Positions 14,277 through 19,658 of a DNA stretch of 20,488 nt are shown piece after piece (position 1 is the stretch's first letter; every line of letters begins with the position of its first letter). The notes beneath the pieces were generated by a model. It was given only the letters and a program-made list of their open reading frames with translations, made no database searches and was not told where the DNA came from. The position numbers and the translations under genes are program-made. Origin of the DNA: a virus; the IMG/VR virus record IMGVR_UViG_3300017756_000148, positions 1-20,488 of that record, one strand, 5' to 3'.

Positions 14277-15584
14277 ATGGAACAACCAAATTATTCTTCA
14301 CTGATTGAAAAATGGTCACCAGTATTAGACGAAGAGTCTGCTGGTGAAATTAAAGACAATCACAGGCGTTCCGTGACTGCAGCCCTTTTGGAAAACCAAG
14401 AGAAAGCAATCTCAGAACAAAACGCACAAGGTATGTTATTCGAAGCCGCACCTGCTAACAATGTTTCAAGTGTATCGAATTTCGACCCAGTGTTAATTTC
14501 TTTAGTTAGAAGAGCTATGCCTAACTTGATTGCATACGATGTATGTGGTGTGCAACCAATGAATGGCCCAACTGGATTAATCTTTGCGATGAAAGCAAGA
14601 TATCAAGGTGGTTCAACTTCTAACAGAGAAGCATTATTTAACGAAGCAGAAACTAGATTTTCTGGTGACTCTTCTGGTACTCATGACTCTGACAACGCTT
14701 CAGGTTATAACGGTATTGACTCAGACGGTGACAGATTAACTTCTTTAGCCGCTACTGGTATGCCGACTGTTGACGCAGAAGAGTTAGGTGCAACTACTGG
14801 TAGTACTTTCAATGAAATGAGTTTCACAATTGAGAAATCAACTGTGACTGCAGTTTCAAGAGCTCTTAAAGCTGAGTACTCACTAGAACTTGCTCAAGAC
14901 CTTAAAGCAATTCACGGTTTAGATGCTGAGACTGAATTAGCTAATATCCTTTCTACTGAAATCCTTGCGGAAATCAACAGAGAAGTTATTAGAACTATTA
15001 ACTCTCAAGCGAAAGACGGTGCTCAACAAGCTAACGTAACTGTAAATGGTGTGTTTAACATGTCATCTGATGCAGACGGACGTTGGAGTGCTGAGAAGTT
15101 CAAAGGTTTAGGTGTACAGATAGACAGAGAATGTAACCAAATCGCTAAAGACTCAAGAAGAGGAAAAGGAAATATCCTAATCTGTTCTTCTGACGTTGCA
15201 ACTGCACTTGCAGCTGCTGGTACTTTGGATTACTCTCCAGGCATATCTAACAACTTAAATGTTGACGATACTGGTAATACTTTTGCTGGTCTTCTTAACG
15301 GAAGAATTAAAGTATACATCGACCCTTACGCAAACACTGACTACTGTACAGTAGGTTATAAAGGTACTAACCCTTATGACGCTGGTGTTTTCTACTGCCC
15401 ATATGTACCTTTACAAATGGTTAAAGCAGTTGGGGAAGATACTTTCCAACCTAGAATTGGTTTTAAAACAAGATACGGAATGGCGTCAAACCCATTTGTA
15501 GGTTCAACACCTGCTAACGGTCTTGCTTCAGTGAAAACTAACTTCTACTACAGAATATTTAAAGTGACTAACATTTTAACATAA
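14277..15584 (+). CDS. gp23: Major capsid protein gp23
   Basis: 435 residues; T4 gp23 is 521, marine relatives are shorter. Signature stretch LVRRAMPNLIAYDVCGVQPM near 76-95 followed by NGPTGLIFAMKARYQ, then FNEMSFTIEKSTVTAVSRAL and LKAEYSLELAQDLKAIHGLD. The N-terminal ~56 residues form the propeptide, likely removed by gp21 after LFE56. An AGG at 14265-14267 is the only Shine-Dalgarno candidate. No late box lies immediately upstream. The gene ends 19 bases before a strong terminator. Confidence 0.97.
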   Translation: MEQPNYSSLIEKWSPVLDEESAGEIKDNHRRSVTAALLENQEKAISEQNAQGMLFEAAPANNVSSVSNFDPVLISLVRRAMPNLIAYDVCGVQPMNGPTGLIFAMKARYQGGSTSNREALFNEAETRFSGDSSGTHDSDNASGYNGIDSDGDRLTSLAATGMPTVDAEELGATTGSTFNEMSFTIEKSTVTAVSRALKAEYSLELAQDLKAIHGLDAETELANILSTEILAEINREVIRTINSQAKDGAQQANVTVNGVFNMSSDADGRWSAEKFKGLGVQIDRECNQIAKDSRRGKGNILICSSDVATALAAAGTLDYSPGISNNLNVDDTGNTFAGLLNGRIKVYIDPYANTDYCTVGYKGTNPYDAGVFYCPYVPLQMVKAVGEDTFQPRIGFKTRYGMASNPFVGSTPANGLASVKTNFYYRIFKVTNILT

Positions 15585-15603: not shown

Positions 15604-15636
15604 AAAAAGGGGAGAACTTCGGTTCTCCCTTTTTTT
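15604..15636 (+). terminator. Intrinsic terminator after gp23
   Basis: GGGAGAAC (15610-15617), TTCG loop, GTTCTCCC (15622-15629), then T7. An A-run before the stem makes it potentially bidirectional. The very stable UUCG loop and eight perfect pairs make this the strongest terminator in the window. Confidence 0.93.
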
Positions 15637-15657: not shown

Positions 15658-15686
15658 TTGACATTTCTTGTTCCACCATGTATAAT
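15658..15686 (+). promoter_or_regulatory. Perfect sigma70-type promoter
   Basis: TTGACA at 15658-15663, 17-base spacer, TATAAT at 15681-15686. Predicted start near 15693. It points into the non-coding RNA and tRNA region, so host-polymerase (early) expression is expected. Confidence 0.88.
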
Positions 15687-15692
15687 ACTTGT

Positions 15693-15820
15693 ATTAAGAA
15701 TGAGAAAGAGAGGTCAAGTTCAGAATAAAGTAACGGCGTAAAGTCAAAGGTCGATAGACACTCACCCCACCACTCGTAGATATTGAAAGTTCGCAACTTT
15801 CCGAGGTGGTGGGTTTTCTT
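15693..15820 (+). ncRNA. Candidate ~128-nt phage small RNA
   Basis: Bounded by a perfect sigma70 promoter and a terminator-like structure. No ORF longer than 13 codons begins near its 5' end. The 3' half folds into a long hairpin: CCCACCAC (15766-15773) pairs with GTGGTGGG (15806-15813), three further pairs with a bulged G, and an inner stem GAAAGTT/AACTTTC (15785-15791 with 15795-15801), followed by TTTTCTT. The 5' ~65 bases are less structured and could be a target-pairing region. I do not recognise a known RNA family. It ends exactly where the tRNA late-promoter box begins. Confidence 0.6.
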
Positions 15821-15827
15821 ATAAATA
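15820..15827 (+). promoter_or_regulatory. Late promoter box for tRNA-Asp
   Basis: Exact TATAAATA whose first base is the last T of the preceding U-tract. Five bases (CATGT) separate it from base 1 of the tRNA, so the predicted start is the mature tRNA 5' end. Confidence 0.7.
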
Positions 15828-15832
15828 CATGT

Positions 15833-15906
15833 GGTCTCTTAGTTTAATGGTAGAACACGACACTGTCGATGTTGTAGTAGGGGTTCGATTCCCCTAGAGA
15901 CCGCCA
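15833..15906 (+). tRNA. tRNA-Asp (anticodon GUC)
   Basis: Full cloverleaf of 74 bases including encoded CCA: acceptor GGTCTCT/AGAGACC, D stem GTTT/GAAC with GG in the loop, anticodon stem CGACA/TGTTG with loop CTGTCGA (GTC at 15865-15867), four-base variable region, T stem AGGGG/CCCCT with loop TTCGATT. Discriminator G is correct for tRNA-Asp. It can be reached by the upstream sigma70 promoter through read-through and by its own late box. Confidence 0.95.
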
Positions 15907-16165
15907 GAATTCACAAGTAGAGAAGAGTCGTAGTTGGTTGGTTGTTGTGAGACTCAGAAAAGATGTTCTAGTTGTTAAAGTCAATTAAGACGTGACATAT
16001 GGTAGTGAGACTAGAATTAACATCGAACAATGATTGCAAAGAAATTCTTATGTAGTTGGGTTGGGATTTGCAGTAAAACGATACTTGTTATGGTGGAAGG
16101 CCGAAACCACCTAGATAAAAAATAGAGTGTAAGAAATCGGGTAATCCCCGAGACATTGAACTACT
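15907..16165 (+). other. Non-coding stretch between tRNA-Asp and iscU, possibly structured RNA
   Basis: No convincing gene. Inverted pairs include GAGTC/GACTC flanking a T/G-rich loop (about 15925-15955), TTCTAGT (15966-15972) with ACTAGAA (16010-16016), TGCAAA (16035-16040) with TTTGCA (16067-16072), GGTGG (16092-16096) with CCACC (16107-16111) and TCGGG (16137-16141) with CCCGA (16147-16151). The series fits a folded RNA co-transcribed with the tRNA, but AT-rich DNA gives some pairs by chance. Confidence 0.4.
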
Positions 16166-16188
16166 GTGCAATCAACTGCACGATTTTT
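16166..16188 (+). terminator. Weak terminator-like hairpin before iscU
   Basis: GTGCA (16166-16170), six-base loop, TGCAC (16177-16181), then GA and T5. The last T is the first base of the iscU late box. The stem is short, so read-through is likely. Confidence 0.45.
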
Positions 16189-16195
16189 ATAAATA
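16188..16195 (+). promoter_or_regulatory. Late promoter box for the iscU operon
   Basis: Exact TATAAATA, five bases (GTAGT) before the iscU ATG; the predicted transcript starts on the ATG. No Shine-Dalgarno lies upstream even on read-through RNA. Confidence 0.8.
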
Positions 16196-16940: not shown

Positions 16941-17173
16941 AAAAAACTAAAAAAAAATATATTCATGTAAATCAACACAAAATTCGTTCCAATAAAAAAC
17001 ATGGTACTAATGAACCAGTTATTACTATAAAGGAAGGAAAGACTAATACATATTGTCATGAAGTAAAAATTTTAGGTGAAAGTACAATACGATATGGTGG
17101 TAATGAAAAACCTATATTACCATGTGGTGCAAGGGTTGTTATTGAGACAACAGCAGATATAGAAATAACTTGA
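16937..17173 (+). CDS. Conserved-looking hypothetical protein in the Fe-S operon
   Basis: 78 residues from an ATG overlapping the iscA-like stop (ATGA); an in-frame ATG at 16904 would overlap iscA by 37 bases and is less likely. N-terminus is very basic (MKKTKKKYIHVNQHKIRSNK). The middle (EPVITIKEGKTNTYCHEVKI) and end (LPCGARVVIETTADIEI) suggest a small beta-rich fold. It has two Cys residues (Cys47-48 region and PCG), but no recognised metal motif. I recall similar short HVNQH...CGARV proteins in marine T4-like phages without known function. Coupling to iscA may mean a shared role, or only shared late expression. The bS21 promoter begins inside its stop codon region. Confidence 0.75.
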   Translation: MKKTKKKYIHVNQHKIRSNKKHGTNEPVITIKEGKTNTYCHEVKILGESTIRYGGNEKPILPCGARVVIETTADIEIT

Positions 17174-17198
17174 CATTTGTTGTTCGTATCGGTATAAT
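17170..17198 (+). promoter_or_regulatory. Perfect sigma70-type promoter for bS21
   Basis: TTGACA at 17170-17175, 17-base spacer, TATAAT at 17193-17198. Six bases (ACGACA) separate it from the bS21 ATG, so +1 is expected at the A of ATG. Confidence 0.88.
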
Positions 17199-17204
17199 AC
17201 GACA

Positions 17205-17513
17205 ATGAGAAAATTTAATCGAAGAATACAGAAACCAAAATCATTCGATAGAAAACCTAAGAAGAAATATACAGGCCCTAAAGATACGGGACTTTCTGTG
17301 TATGTACGAGAAGGTAATGTAGATAGAGCATTACGTACTTTCAAAAAGAAAGTAAAGAATGCGAATATCATGCAAGACTTGAAAGACAGAGAGTTCTTTC
17401 AGACTCGTAGAGAGAAACGTAGACTATTGAAAGATAAAGCAATACGTAGACAGAAAAGAGAAAACGAAAATAATAAGGGTTTAGGATTTACTAAACGAGG
17501 AAGATTTCAGTAG
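17205..17513 (+). CDS. rpsU: Phage-encoded ribosomal protein bS21
   Basis: 102 residues; bacterial bS21 is about 60-75. The bS21 core lies at residues 29-85: LSVYVREGNVDRALRTFKKK, VKNANIMQDLKDREFF and EKRRLLKDKAIRRQKR, matching the VRENE..D.ALRRFKR....GIL.E.RRREFYEKP pattern. It carries extra basic segments: ~28 residues at the N-terminus and a Gly/Asn/Arg C-terminal tail. bS21 sits on the small-subunit platform near the anti-Shine-Dalgarno and helps initiation; phage versions are known in marine phages. The promoter is early-type and the mRNA should be leaderless; no Shine-Dalgarno is present. A structured 3' UTR and terminator follow. Confidence 0.93.
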   Translation: MRKFNRRIQKPKSFDRKPKKKYTGPKDTGLSVYVREGNVDRALRTFKKKVKNANIMQDLKDREFFQTRREKRRLLKDKAIRRQKRENENNKGLGFTKRGRFQ

Positions 17514-17894: not shown

Positions 17895-17985
17895 AAGACA
17901 AGAATAAAATCAACGCAATCGAAAATATAAAAATTCCAATATACGCATCGACTTTACCCAGTTTTTGGTGTCTTACTTTATACAT
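17893..17985 (-). CDS. 30-residue single-span membrane miniprotein
   Basis: MYKVRHQKLGKVDAYIGIFI then FSIALILFLS. A basic N-terminus is followed by a 17-residue hydrophobic segment reaching the C-terminus. The start overlaps the end of the YRG-repeat gene by eight bases, and the stop lies at the hairpin of the shared terminator, so it fills the gap exactly. Overlap suggests translational coupling. No family recognised. Small size makes it uncertain, but the sharp basic/hydrophobic partition is unlikely for a random frame. Confidence 0.5.
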   Translation of the reverse strand: MYKVRHQKLGKVDAYIGIFIFSIALILFLS

Positions 17986-18145
17986 GTTTTACACCACGAT
18001 AAATACCACCTTGTGCTTTTTTAGCAGCGTTAGATGATTTTACAGTGATTGCATCATGTTTAATTCCACGATAAATGCCTGCGACACGAGATTTTTTCTC
18101 TTTCGCAACATTTTCGGGAGTTTGTTTGATACCTCTGTAATACAT
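17978..18145 (-). CDS. 55-residue protein with three YRG[IV]K repeats
   Basis: The start at 18145 is set by a strong GGAGG (18158-18154) eight bases upstream; a longer frame beginning at 18190 would bury that site. The protein shows YYRGIKQ, IYRGIKH and IYRGVKH at residues 2-8, 24-30 and 48-54, separated by Lys/Ala/Ser-rich linkers. It is basic overall. Short YRG[VI]-type proteins (such as DUF4278-like ones in cyanobacteria and phages) come to mind, but their function is unknown and the link is tentative. It follows a long structured leader with a late promoter, which suggests post-transcriptional control. Confidence 0.68.
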   Translation of the reverse strand: MYYRGIKQTPENVAKEKKSRVAGIYRGIKHDAITVKSSNAAKKAQGGIYRGVKHV

Positions 18146-18385
18146 AGGTTCGCCCTCCAGTTTTCTAATCGATTTCGTACATAGTCTCACGACTACACCC
18201 TTCTCATAGCGTTCCTTCGGTAAAACTGTCGGTCTCTGTTCCCCTTACGGGTACTTAGCTTTCCTTTCTGAATAGAAAGAGGTTTTCAGGTTTTCCTACT
18301 TCCGTCTTATATAAAATATAAGATGAACGAAGTCTGAATACTCAGCCTAAGCTATACACCCCCCTTGGCGGCGTATTCAGTATTC
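18146..18385 (-). ncRNA. Long structured leader or small RNA upstream of the YRG-repeat gene
   Basis: About 240 bases of RNA expected from the minus-strand late box at 18398-18391, with no convincing ORF. Folding elements on the minus strand: CTGAATAC (18380-18373) with GTATTCAG (18341-18334) enclosing a G-rich loop; TCTTATAT-TTT-ATATAAGA (18323-18305), extended by ACTTC/GAAGT; CCC-GTAA-GGG near 18251-18242; and TAGTC-GTGA-GACTA (18195-18182). Two have GNRA loops. It is compositionally unlike the coding DNA, with C/G runs. It could be a cis-regulatory leader or an independent RNA. Confidence 0.45.
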
Positions 18386-18415: not shown

Positions 18416-19027
18416 TTAATCTGATAAAAAATCCTTTAAATCCGAGTCCACATTGACCGCACGTCTTTTTCTTTTCTTCTTCTCTTCGGTCACGACATCT
18501 TTCCAATAACGGTCTACACTCTTAATATCATCTATCTTTTGTCTAAGAGTATCCACTAGGAATTGTCCAGCTTCATCTGATTGTTCTGTTCCACTCTCGT
18601 TATCAACTAAATCTTCATACTCAATGTTTGCCATATATTTTAGTTTGATATCTTGTTGTTTCTTTTCTTTATCTATTCTACGTAAGAATGCATACCAAGC
18701 GATTTGCGTAAAGTATGCGAATGCATTAGGTGTTCCCGTTCTAGTTGCAGTCTCAATATCATAGTTCTTGATTGCTTTTAAACAATTCTCTACTGCGTCC
18801 ATAACCATTTCTTCACGATAAGTATATCGAATAAAATTAGATTTGTGTGATAATCCTTCTGCGATTTTTAGAAAACACTCTGCAATGTAATTATCAATCA
18901 CTGGGATTTTCTTTGACTTCTGTTTCTGTGCTTTCTGTAATCTATTACAGTAATCTACAACCGCAAGAGAAAACTCTTTGTTGTTTACGTAGTGTGGTTT
19001 ATCTTGTGGTTTTATTTTTTGTGTCAT
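18416..19027 (-). CDS. gp55: Late transcription sigma factor gp55
   Basis: 203 residues (T4 gp55: 185). Matches T4 gp55 in order: HYVNNKEFSLAVVDY (T4 YNYVNNKELLQAIID), IAEGLSHKSNFIRYTYREEM (T4 [22 protein letters not shown]), AVENCLKAIKNYD, and the FAYFTQIAWYAFLRRIDKEK block (T4 AYITQACFNAFVQRIKKER). In T4 the C-terminal SLDFLYE motif binds the gp45 sliding clamp; here the end is DLKDFLSD, a plausible equivalent. gp55 directs RNA polymerase to TATAAATA, which occurs ten times in this window. It has its own sigma70-type promoter, as expected for a gene needed before late transcription. Confidence 0.94.
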   Translation of the reverse strand: MTQKIKPQDKPHYVNNKEFSLAVVDYCNRLQKAQKQKSKKIPVIDNYIAECFLKIAEGLSHKSNFIRYTYREEMVMDAVENCLKAIKNYDIETATRTGTPNAFAYFTQIAWYAFLRRIDKEKKQQDIKLKYMANIEYEDLVDNESGTEQSDEAGQFLVDTLRQKIDDIKSVDRYWKDVVTEEKKKRKRRAVNVDSDLKDFLSD

Positions 19028-19098: not shown

Positions 19099-19127
19099 TT
19101 GACAAAACTTGTTTCATCGTATATAAT
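19099..19127 (+). promoter_or_regulatory. Perfect sigma70-type promoter pointing antisense
   Basis: TTGACA (19099-19104), 17-base spacer, TATAAT (19122-19127) on the plus strand. Predicted start near 19134. All downstream genes in the window are on the minus strand, so its product would be antisense to the 19158-19658 gene and uvsW. It is back-to-back with the gp55 promoter, 15 bases apart. Confidence 0.75.
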
Positions 19128-19157: not shown

Positions 19158-19658
19158 CTAGTGTAATTTATCTTTATCTGGGTCATGCATAGGGAAGAAT
19201 AATAACTTTCCTAATTTATCTGCAGCTTCTTCGACTTCTTCTTTTGTCTTTTCAACTAATCCGTCTACATATTCTTGTATCTTACCTTCACGCATAGCAG
19301 CCTCTGCATCTTTCCAACTACGCATTCTATCTTCATAGTTTGCGTTCATATCTAATAATGCTTCTTCCCATTGCAATAATAAATGTTCGGGTGGTTTTGC
19401 CATACTGACAATATGATAAGAATTCAATGACATAATACTTGCAAGACTTTCTTGATACACCATAAACGGACGCATCGTATAAAACGGAAAACCAGTAGTT
19501 GATTTTGCATAAACCATTTTCACTGCCTTTCTGATTACGATTTCTTCTTGACGAGTTGCATCATCACTGTATGGGTCATTCCATTCAATAACTTCGCATA
19601 TAACTTCGTCTCCTGATGCAAGTTTAAAGTGTCTTACGTCACCTATTTTTTTATCCAT
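19158..19658 (-). CDS. Hypothetical late protein, possible Sm-like barrel
   Basis: 166 residues. The first ~95 (VRHFKLASGDEVICEVIEWN, EEIVIRKAVKMVYA, FPFYTMRPFMV, HIVSMAKPPEHLL) read as alternating short strands, and the 'KL.SGDEVICEV' opening resembles Sm/Hfq-like small barrels. The C-terminal third (KTKEEVEEAADKLGKLL) is a charged helix. The similarity is weak and I do not claim RNA binding. The gene begins five bases after an exact late box that touches the uvsW stop codon, with no Shine-Dalgarno, so the mRNA is predicted leaderless. Position between uvsW and gp55 may be conserved in marine relatives but cannot be checked here. Confidence 0.8.
   Translation of the reverse strand: MDKKIGDVRHFKLASGDEVICEVIEWNDPYSDDATRQEEIVIRKAVKMVYAKSTTGFPFYTMRPFMVYQESLASIMSLNSYHIVSMAKPPEHLLLQWEEALLDMNANYEDRMRSWKDAEAAMREGKIQEYVDGLVEKTKEEVEEAADKLGKLLFFPMHDPDKDKLH

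Follow-up and report, generated by a model that had tools for sequence, protein, structure and literature searches.

A candidate small RNA gene with a start-less Shine-Dalgarno block in a clade of marine T4-like phages

We describe a candidate phage small RNA (sRNA) in an ocean myovirus clade, for which the promoter, the terminator, the covarying structure, and the conserved core are already delimited. The sequence comparisons indicate that the sRNA is an autonomous intergenic gene with its own promoter and its own intrinsic terminator, and that its family is confined to one clade. The reading we favor, with moderate confidence, is that of a trans-acting phage sRNA, which would be transcribed early and would pair with other RNAs through a 28-nt core, with a Shine-Dalgarno (SD) block as an accessory docking element.

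Genomic context

The window, that is, the whole stretch of DNA that was analyzed, is a virus record of 20,488 bases with a T4-like structural module. The gene order after gp23 is tRNA-Asp, an IscU/NifU homologue, an IscA/HesB-type protein, a bS21 homologue, a glutamine riboswitch, and a gp55-like late sigma factor. The nearest named phages, according to the DNA identity of gp23, include Melnitz (69.6%), Mosig (69.9%), and HTVC008M (71%), all of them marine and classed in Kyanoviridae; the carrier of the sRNA is a marine T4-like myovirus of the pelagimyophage/Melnitz-like group. Pelagimyophages have SAR11 as their host, and Melnitz has OM43. The features of the neighborhood are the following:

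14277-15584: gp23 (major capsid), before the sRNA unit
15604-15635 (+): gp23 intrinsic terminator, with a 14-pair stem, a loop of 4, and a T run; upstream insulation of the unit
15658-15686 (+): sigma70-type sRNA promoter TTGACA-17-TATAAT, matching the consensus at 12/12 positions
15692-15820 (+): predicted sRNA of about 128 nt, with an inferred 5' end; covariance-model match at 15692-15819, 159.9 bits
15766-15820 (+): bulged terminator hairpin and U-tract, 8+3+7 pairs, with an invariant UAGA in a one-sided internal loop (15777-15784)
15820-15827 (+): T4-type late promoter TATAAATA of the tRNA-Asp unit, read in the sequence; downstream border of the sRNA
15833-15906: tRNA-Asp, 3' of the sRNA unit
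17205-17513 (+): bS21 homologue (Pfam Ribosomal_S21, E 8e-15)
18416-19027: gp55-like late sigma factor encoded in the window

The transcription unit and its coding potential

Relatives were collected through gp23 and through exact pieces of the sRNA unit, and a contig was assigned to the clade if its gp23 was at least 95% identical. The full-length sRNA is represented by 12 distinct sequences of 127-129 nt, and all 12 carry the TTGACA-17-TATAAT promoter. In the window, the two boxes occupy 15658-15663 (TTGACA) and 15681-15686 (TATAAT), with a 17-bp spacer between them; the window contains three perfect promoters of this kind, compared with 0.045 expected. No gene overlaps the unit on its own or on the opposite strand; it sits between the gp23 terminator, which is also kept in close relatives, and the late-type TATAAATA. 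The first-pass annotation of this DNA had proposed a complete sRNA transcription unit, composed of a consensus promoter, about 128 bases without an ORF, and a terminator hairpin, and insulated on both sides. Our results agree with this proposal: the promoter is present in every full-length copy, no sense ORF is conserved, the gp23 terminator and the late promoter flank the unit, and its completeness is suggested by the conserved promoter, the covarying hairpin, the constrained length, and the survival of the unit through relocation and inversion. The promoter type is also what points to early expression; host RNA polymerase would then transcribe the sRNA early in infection.

An ORF scan found no sense-strand ORF of 40 aa in the unit. 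The presence of an SD sequence and of a 13-codon ATG frame in the window would suit a unit that encodes a tiny peptide, but this frame, the only one on the sense strand that starts with ATG, has 5 codons in L002, L003, and L093 and is absent from L012 and L099. The frame that would start at the ATT, GTT, or TTT triplet described below is likewise broken in L007, L086, and L022. Because neither frame is conserved, we reject the small-peptide reading as highly improbable.

Structure and covariation of the terminator hairpin

The hairpin, described beforehand as 8+3+7 pairs followed by TTTTCTT, is found exactly so. The outer stem CCCACCAC/GTGGTGGG forms 8 pairs and is followed by a bulged G and by the 3 pairs of TCG/CGA; the one-sided 8-nt internal loop is UAGAUAUU, and the inner stem GAAAGTT/AACTTTC contributes 7 pairs closed by the loop CGC, with TTTTCTT after the stem. 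A simple terminator scan misses this hairpin because the internal loop interrupts the stem. Its folding z-score is -2.46, and an equally good fold was obtained in 2 of 200 shuffled sequences.

Among the 12 distinct copies, two-sided changes that preserve pairing are seen at 9 of the 19 modelled pairs. Neither of the two sequence-based refuters named in the first-pass annotation, a lack of compensatory changes and a lack of the promoter in relatives, therefore applies. Standard pairs are formed in 97.3% of the cells of the hairpin alignment, a value that drops to 38-54% when the partner is slid by 1-3 columns. For example, the window, L003, and L009 carry CACCAC/GTGGTG, CACTGC/GCAGTG, and CGTCAC/GTGACG, respectively. 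Since these compensations are present between near-identical copies, they are recent and repeated and do not reflect a single inherited change. In the proposed mechanism, the hairpin would both terminate and protect the sRNA.

Phylogenetic distribution and autonomy of the unit

The sRNA unit is present in 17 of the 17 contigs of this marine T4-like clade that reach the region (L001-L004, L006-L012, L014-L018, and L022, the unit being truncated in L018); L005, L013, and L019-L021 stop short of the sRNA region and were left out. A covariance search did not find it in the fetched flanks of gp23 relatives below 90% identity, which represent the next clade, nor in the Melnitz, HTVC008M, Mosig, and C48C1 records. 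Outside the unit, this search gave weak matches only, two of which correspond to a homologous early-gene leader. Looser patterns for the leader and the hairpin, applied to 2.9 million viral contigs, gave no carrier beyond the same clade, and the core pattern had zero matches in bacterial and archaeal genomes. The opinion that the RNA belongs to no known family also stands: no Rfam family covers it at gathering or relaxed thresholds, and a word-11 search for DNA similarity in 50,697 phage records gave nothing credible, only matches with E >= 0.05 in unrelated records. We found no mention of the sRNA in the papers searched. It thus appears to be a new family, phage-encoded sRNAs themselves being already known.

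The unit occurs in three settings. In the first one, tRNA-Asp is the downstream neighbor, and in most copies gp23 is on the other side. In the second (L022 and L099), tRNA-Asp has been lost and the unit lies directly before iscU; loss of the tRNA has thus not entailed loss of the RNA. In the third (L011, L015, L016, and L018, as well as L088 and L094), the unit is inverted and converges on gp23, and in L016, L088, and L094 tRNA-Asp is found about 2 kb away. The promoter and the terminator travel with the sRNA in all three settings, and since the unit remains intact across them, we consider it an autonomous gene and not a leader or attenuator. A riboswitch-like cis-acting leader or attenuator of the downstream tRNA-Asp or iscU would fit the position of the unit directly upstream of one of these genes in most relatives, but in the inverted copies of L011, L015, L016, and L018 only its own terminator lies downstream on its strand, and tRNA-Asp is displaced in L016. 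No fixed same-strand position upstream of a gene is kept, and the inverted copies rule out a riboswitch, leader, or attenuator in general; we give this reading next to no probability.

Conservation of the internal modules

The 5' part of the sRNA is divided into three modules, a conserved start-less SD sequence, a variable spacer, and an almost invariant core:

15703-15714 (+): AGAAAGAGAGGT, invariant SD-like block, identical in 12/12 copies and complementary to the 16S rRNA 3' tail
15715-15731 (+): variable spacer of 16-18 nt, site of the ancestral start codon; 71-100% identity between the window and relatives
15732-15759 (+): 28-nt core AACGGCGTAAAGTCAAAnGTCGAyAGAC, candidate pairing site; 96-100% identity between the window and relatives

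Divergence was measured between the window and L011, L012, L016, and L022, with the four-fold sites of gp23 as the yardstick. These sites differ by 24-27%, the core by 0-4%, the leader by 4-13%, and the spacer by 12-24%, while the sequence of the hairpin differs by 30-41% with its pairing kept. These values point to strong purifying selection on the core and on the SD-like block, and a frozen core next to a drifting terminator with a kept structure is, on this evidence, the profile of a trans-acting sRNA. The same pattern bears on whether the unit is a relic without function, left by the duplication of an early promoter and gene start and ending at a terminator by chance. In favor of a relic, the 5' part clearly copies an early-gene 5' end without its start codon; however, the core is frozen while neutral sites diverge by up to 27%, repeated compensation maintains the pairing of the hairpin, and none of the 17 contigs, including those with an inverted unit, has lost the unit. 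We regard a relic as very improbable.

The first-pass annotation had also described the 5' part as unstructured and free for pairing. This holds only in part: the region is modular and not featureless, and it is predicted to be moderately single-stranded, with mean unpaired probabilities of 0.53-0.68. The core, with a mean of 0.53, is predicted to be only about half unpaired and not strongly single-stranded, which counts against the favored reading; its free accessibility is thus a supposition.

Origin of the 5' part and the start-less SD block

The promoter, the leader, and the first codons of the sRNA are homologous to the 5' end of an early gene that has an ATG in related phages, with 83% identity over 77 nt at G3:38021-38096 (E 2e-16) and 79.5% over 88 nt at G1:52170-52084. 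The homologous early ORF has a near-consensus promoter (11/12) and begins with MQNDKF in G3. At the position of the ATG, the sRNA reads ATT, GTT, or TTT in 12 of 12 copies. Hence the sRNA looks like a captured early leader that has lost its start codon and has acquired a core and a terminator; we infer that the copying went from early-gene leader to sRNA. Duplication of an early promoter and leader, followed by loss of the start codon with the SD sequence kept, is a plausible route for the birth of an sRNA.

The longest invariant block of the leader, and the only one without variation among the 12 copies, is AGAAAGAGAGGU; it is also the stretch that can pair with the 3' tail of the 16S rRNA, and it has no usable start codon behind it. 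With the 16S tail ACCUCCUUUCU, a sequence taken from one locus, it is predicted to form an 11-pair duplex with one bulge, of -13.8 to -13.9 kcal/mol in four variants and of -13.8 kcal/mol or stronger in all 12. In two related records, where a simple rule was used to call gene starts, this strength is matched at only 1 start of 136 and at 2 of 67; among random windows, it is reached in 0.2%.

Such a block may serve for ribosome docking or as a decoy, or may be a general purine-rich pairing block. According to the decoy explanation, the strong start-less SD sequence occupies the 16S 3' tail or the 30S subunit and damps the translation of the host or of competing phages, perhaps together with bS21, whose homologue is encoded nearby. 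It draws on the invariance of the block, the strength of its duplex, and the loss of the start codon in every copy. However, it leaves the 28-nt core unexplained and would need a very high abundance of the RNA; in addition, the strong SD sequence may be merely inherited from the source leader, and the block is only partly unpaired in the prediction (0.59). We therefore consider a decoy unlikely, and equally doubtful is its fuller version, in which a captured start-less leader, through its over-strong SD sequence on the 16S tail and together with the phage bS21, would bias translation during takeover. To our knowledge, RNA-based ribosome decoys are not known from any phage; if true, this would reveal a novel phage strategy directed at ribosomes, and the start-less SD sequence is the feature that could make the sRNA more than a new family.

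The resemblance of the 5' part to an early-gene leader also suggests a sponge for a protein that recognizes early leaders, such as the phage translational repressor RegA, whose gene is found in three related records of the clade. T4 RegA sites require an AUG after a 5' A-tract (PMC3014915), but the sRNA has no A-tract-AUG, and the corresponding spacer is among its least conserved parts. This conservation pattern disfavors the RegA sponge, which we rate as quite unlikely.

Proposed mode of action and search for targets

According to the favored reading, the sRNA would act in trans by RNA-RNA pairing; its core would be the most likely contact to phage or host RNA, and the start-less SD block would probably dock on the 16S rRNA 3' tail or on another pyrimidine-rich RNA. 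When pairing with phage gene starts was predicted, the core did no better than its shuffled versions. The top phage target shared between two phages was rejected: it is an internal start and its pairing differs between them. Among 147 SAR11-family genomes, no conserved near-exact complement of the core was found, with counts at the control level or zero. Hfq (PF17209) was not detected in 4 SAR11 genomes, which are possibly incomplete, and was found in Caulobacter and others; therefore, if the host is SAR11, the pairing would have to be independent of Hfq.

Comparison with known phage RNAs

RNAC and RNAD are small RNAs of the tRNA region of T4, of unknown role, and, like the sRNA, are encoded beside tRNA genes in a T4-type phage (PMC3014915). 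They show no similarity to the sRNA in a word-11 sequence search, which leaves room for distant homology, and they differ from it in that the sRNA carries a promoter and a terminator of its own and can move independently of the tRNA. Another non-coding RNA of a marine T4-like phage is CfrI of cyanophage S-PM2 (PMC12197685), which is a cis-antisense RNA of about 225 nt at psbA, whereas the sRNA unit overlaps no gene and has no fixed neighbor. The sar RNA of P22 is short, phage-encoded, and trans-acting by pairing (PMC12197685), and its mode of action resembles the one proposed in the favored reading of the sRNA. Finally, the glutamine riboswitch (RF01739) is, like the sRNA, a structured RNA found in the same phage group (PMC9004378) and in the same window, but it is a cis-regulatory aptamer of a known family, while the sRNA forms a unit by itself and matches nothing in Rfam.

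Other RNAs and promoters in the neighborhood

A structured RNA of about 285-290 nt, which we call nc2, lies at 15907-16190 (+), directly 3' of the CCA of tRNA-Asp. Homologues are found at L012:6624-6914, L257:1296-1544, and L262:532-780, and nc2 is absent from L008, L022, L096, and L099. Its copies are about 95-99% identical in relatives whose genes can be as little as 80% identical; iscU has only 79-83% identity in several of the contigs that carry nc2. Another phage group, with about 70% identity in gp23 DNA, contains a distant homologue with its own TTGACA-17-TATAAT promoter. Stems of the nc2 homologue are compensated, with UUCUAGU/ACUAGAA replaced by UCCACAC/GUGUGGA, and CGGG/CCCG by UGGG/CCCA. 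A search of Rfam gave no match for nc2, which, judging from these comparisons, is an unrecorded family of structured RNAs, separate from the sRNA and broader than it.

Adjoining gp23 in some contigs is RNA X, of about 510 nt, with no long ORF and with its own promoter (TTGACA..TATTAT) and terminator. It is located at 85363-85915 (+) of the G1 contig, in L121, at L012:4350-4900 (-), and also in L099, L106, and L107, and it has no match in Rfam. Its colinear similarity to nc2 is weak, with 2 of 200 shuffles scoring as well, and RNA X is possibly a distant member of the nc2 family. The sRNA has no significant relation to nc2 or to RNA X (56 and 113 of 200 shuffles as good, respectively).

The glutamine riboswitch (46.8 bits) is located at 18206-18331 (-), upstream of a 70-aa ORF at 17978-18190 (-) with weak similarity to DUF4278. 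In the bS21 homologue region, 17170-17513 (+), there is a perfect promoter with the end of its -10 box 6 bases upstream of the ATG (17205), which suggests a nearly leaderless mRNA. The third perfect promoter of the window, at 19099-19127 (+), is oriented antisense to the ORF at 19158-19658 (-), into which it reads. G1 and G3 have comparable promoters, at 82160 (-) and 6663 (+), respectively, and a transcript starting from the promoter in the window could be an antisense RNA or a second small RNA.
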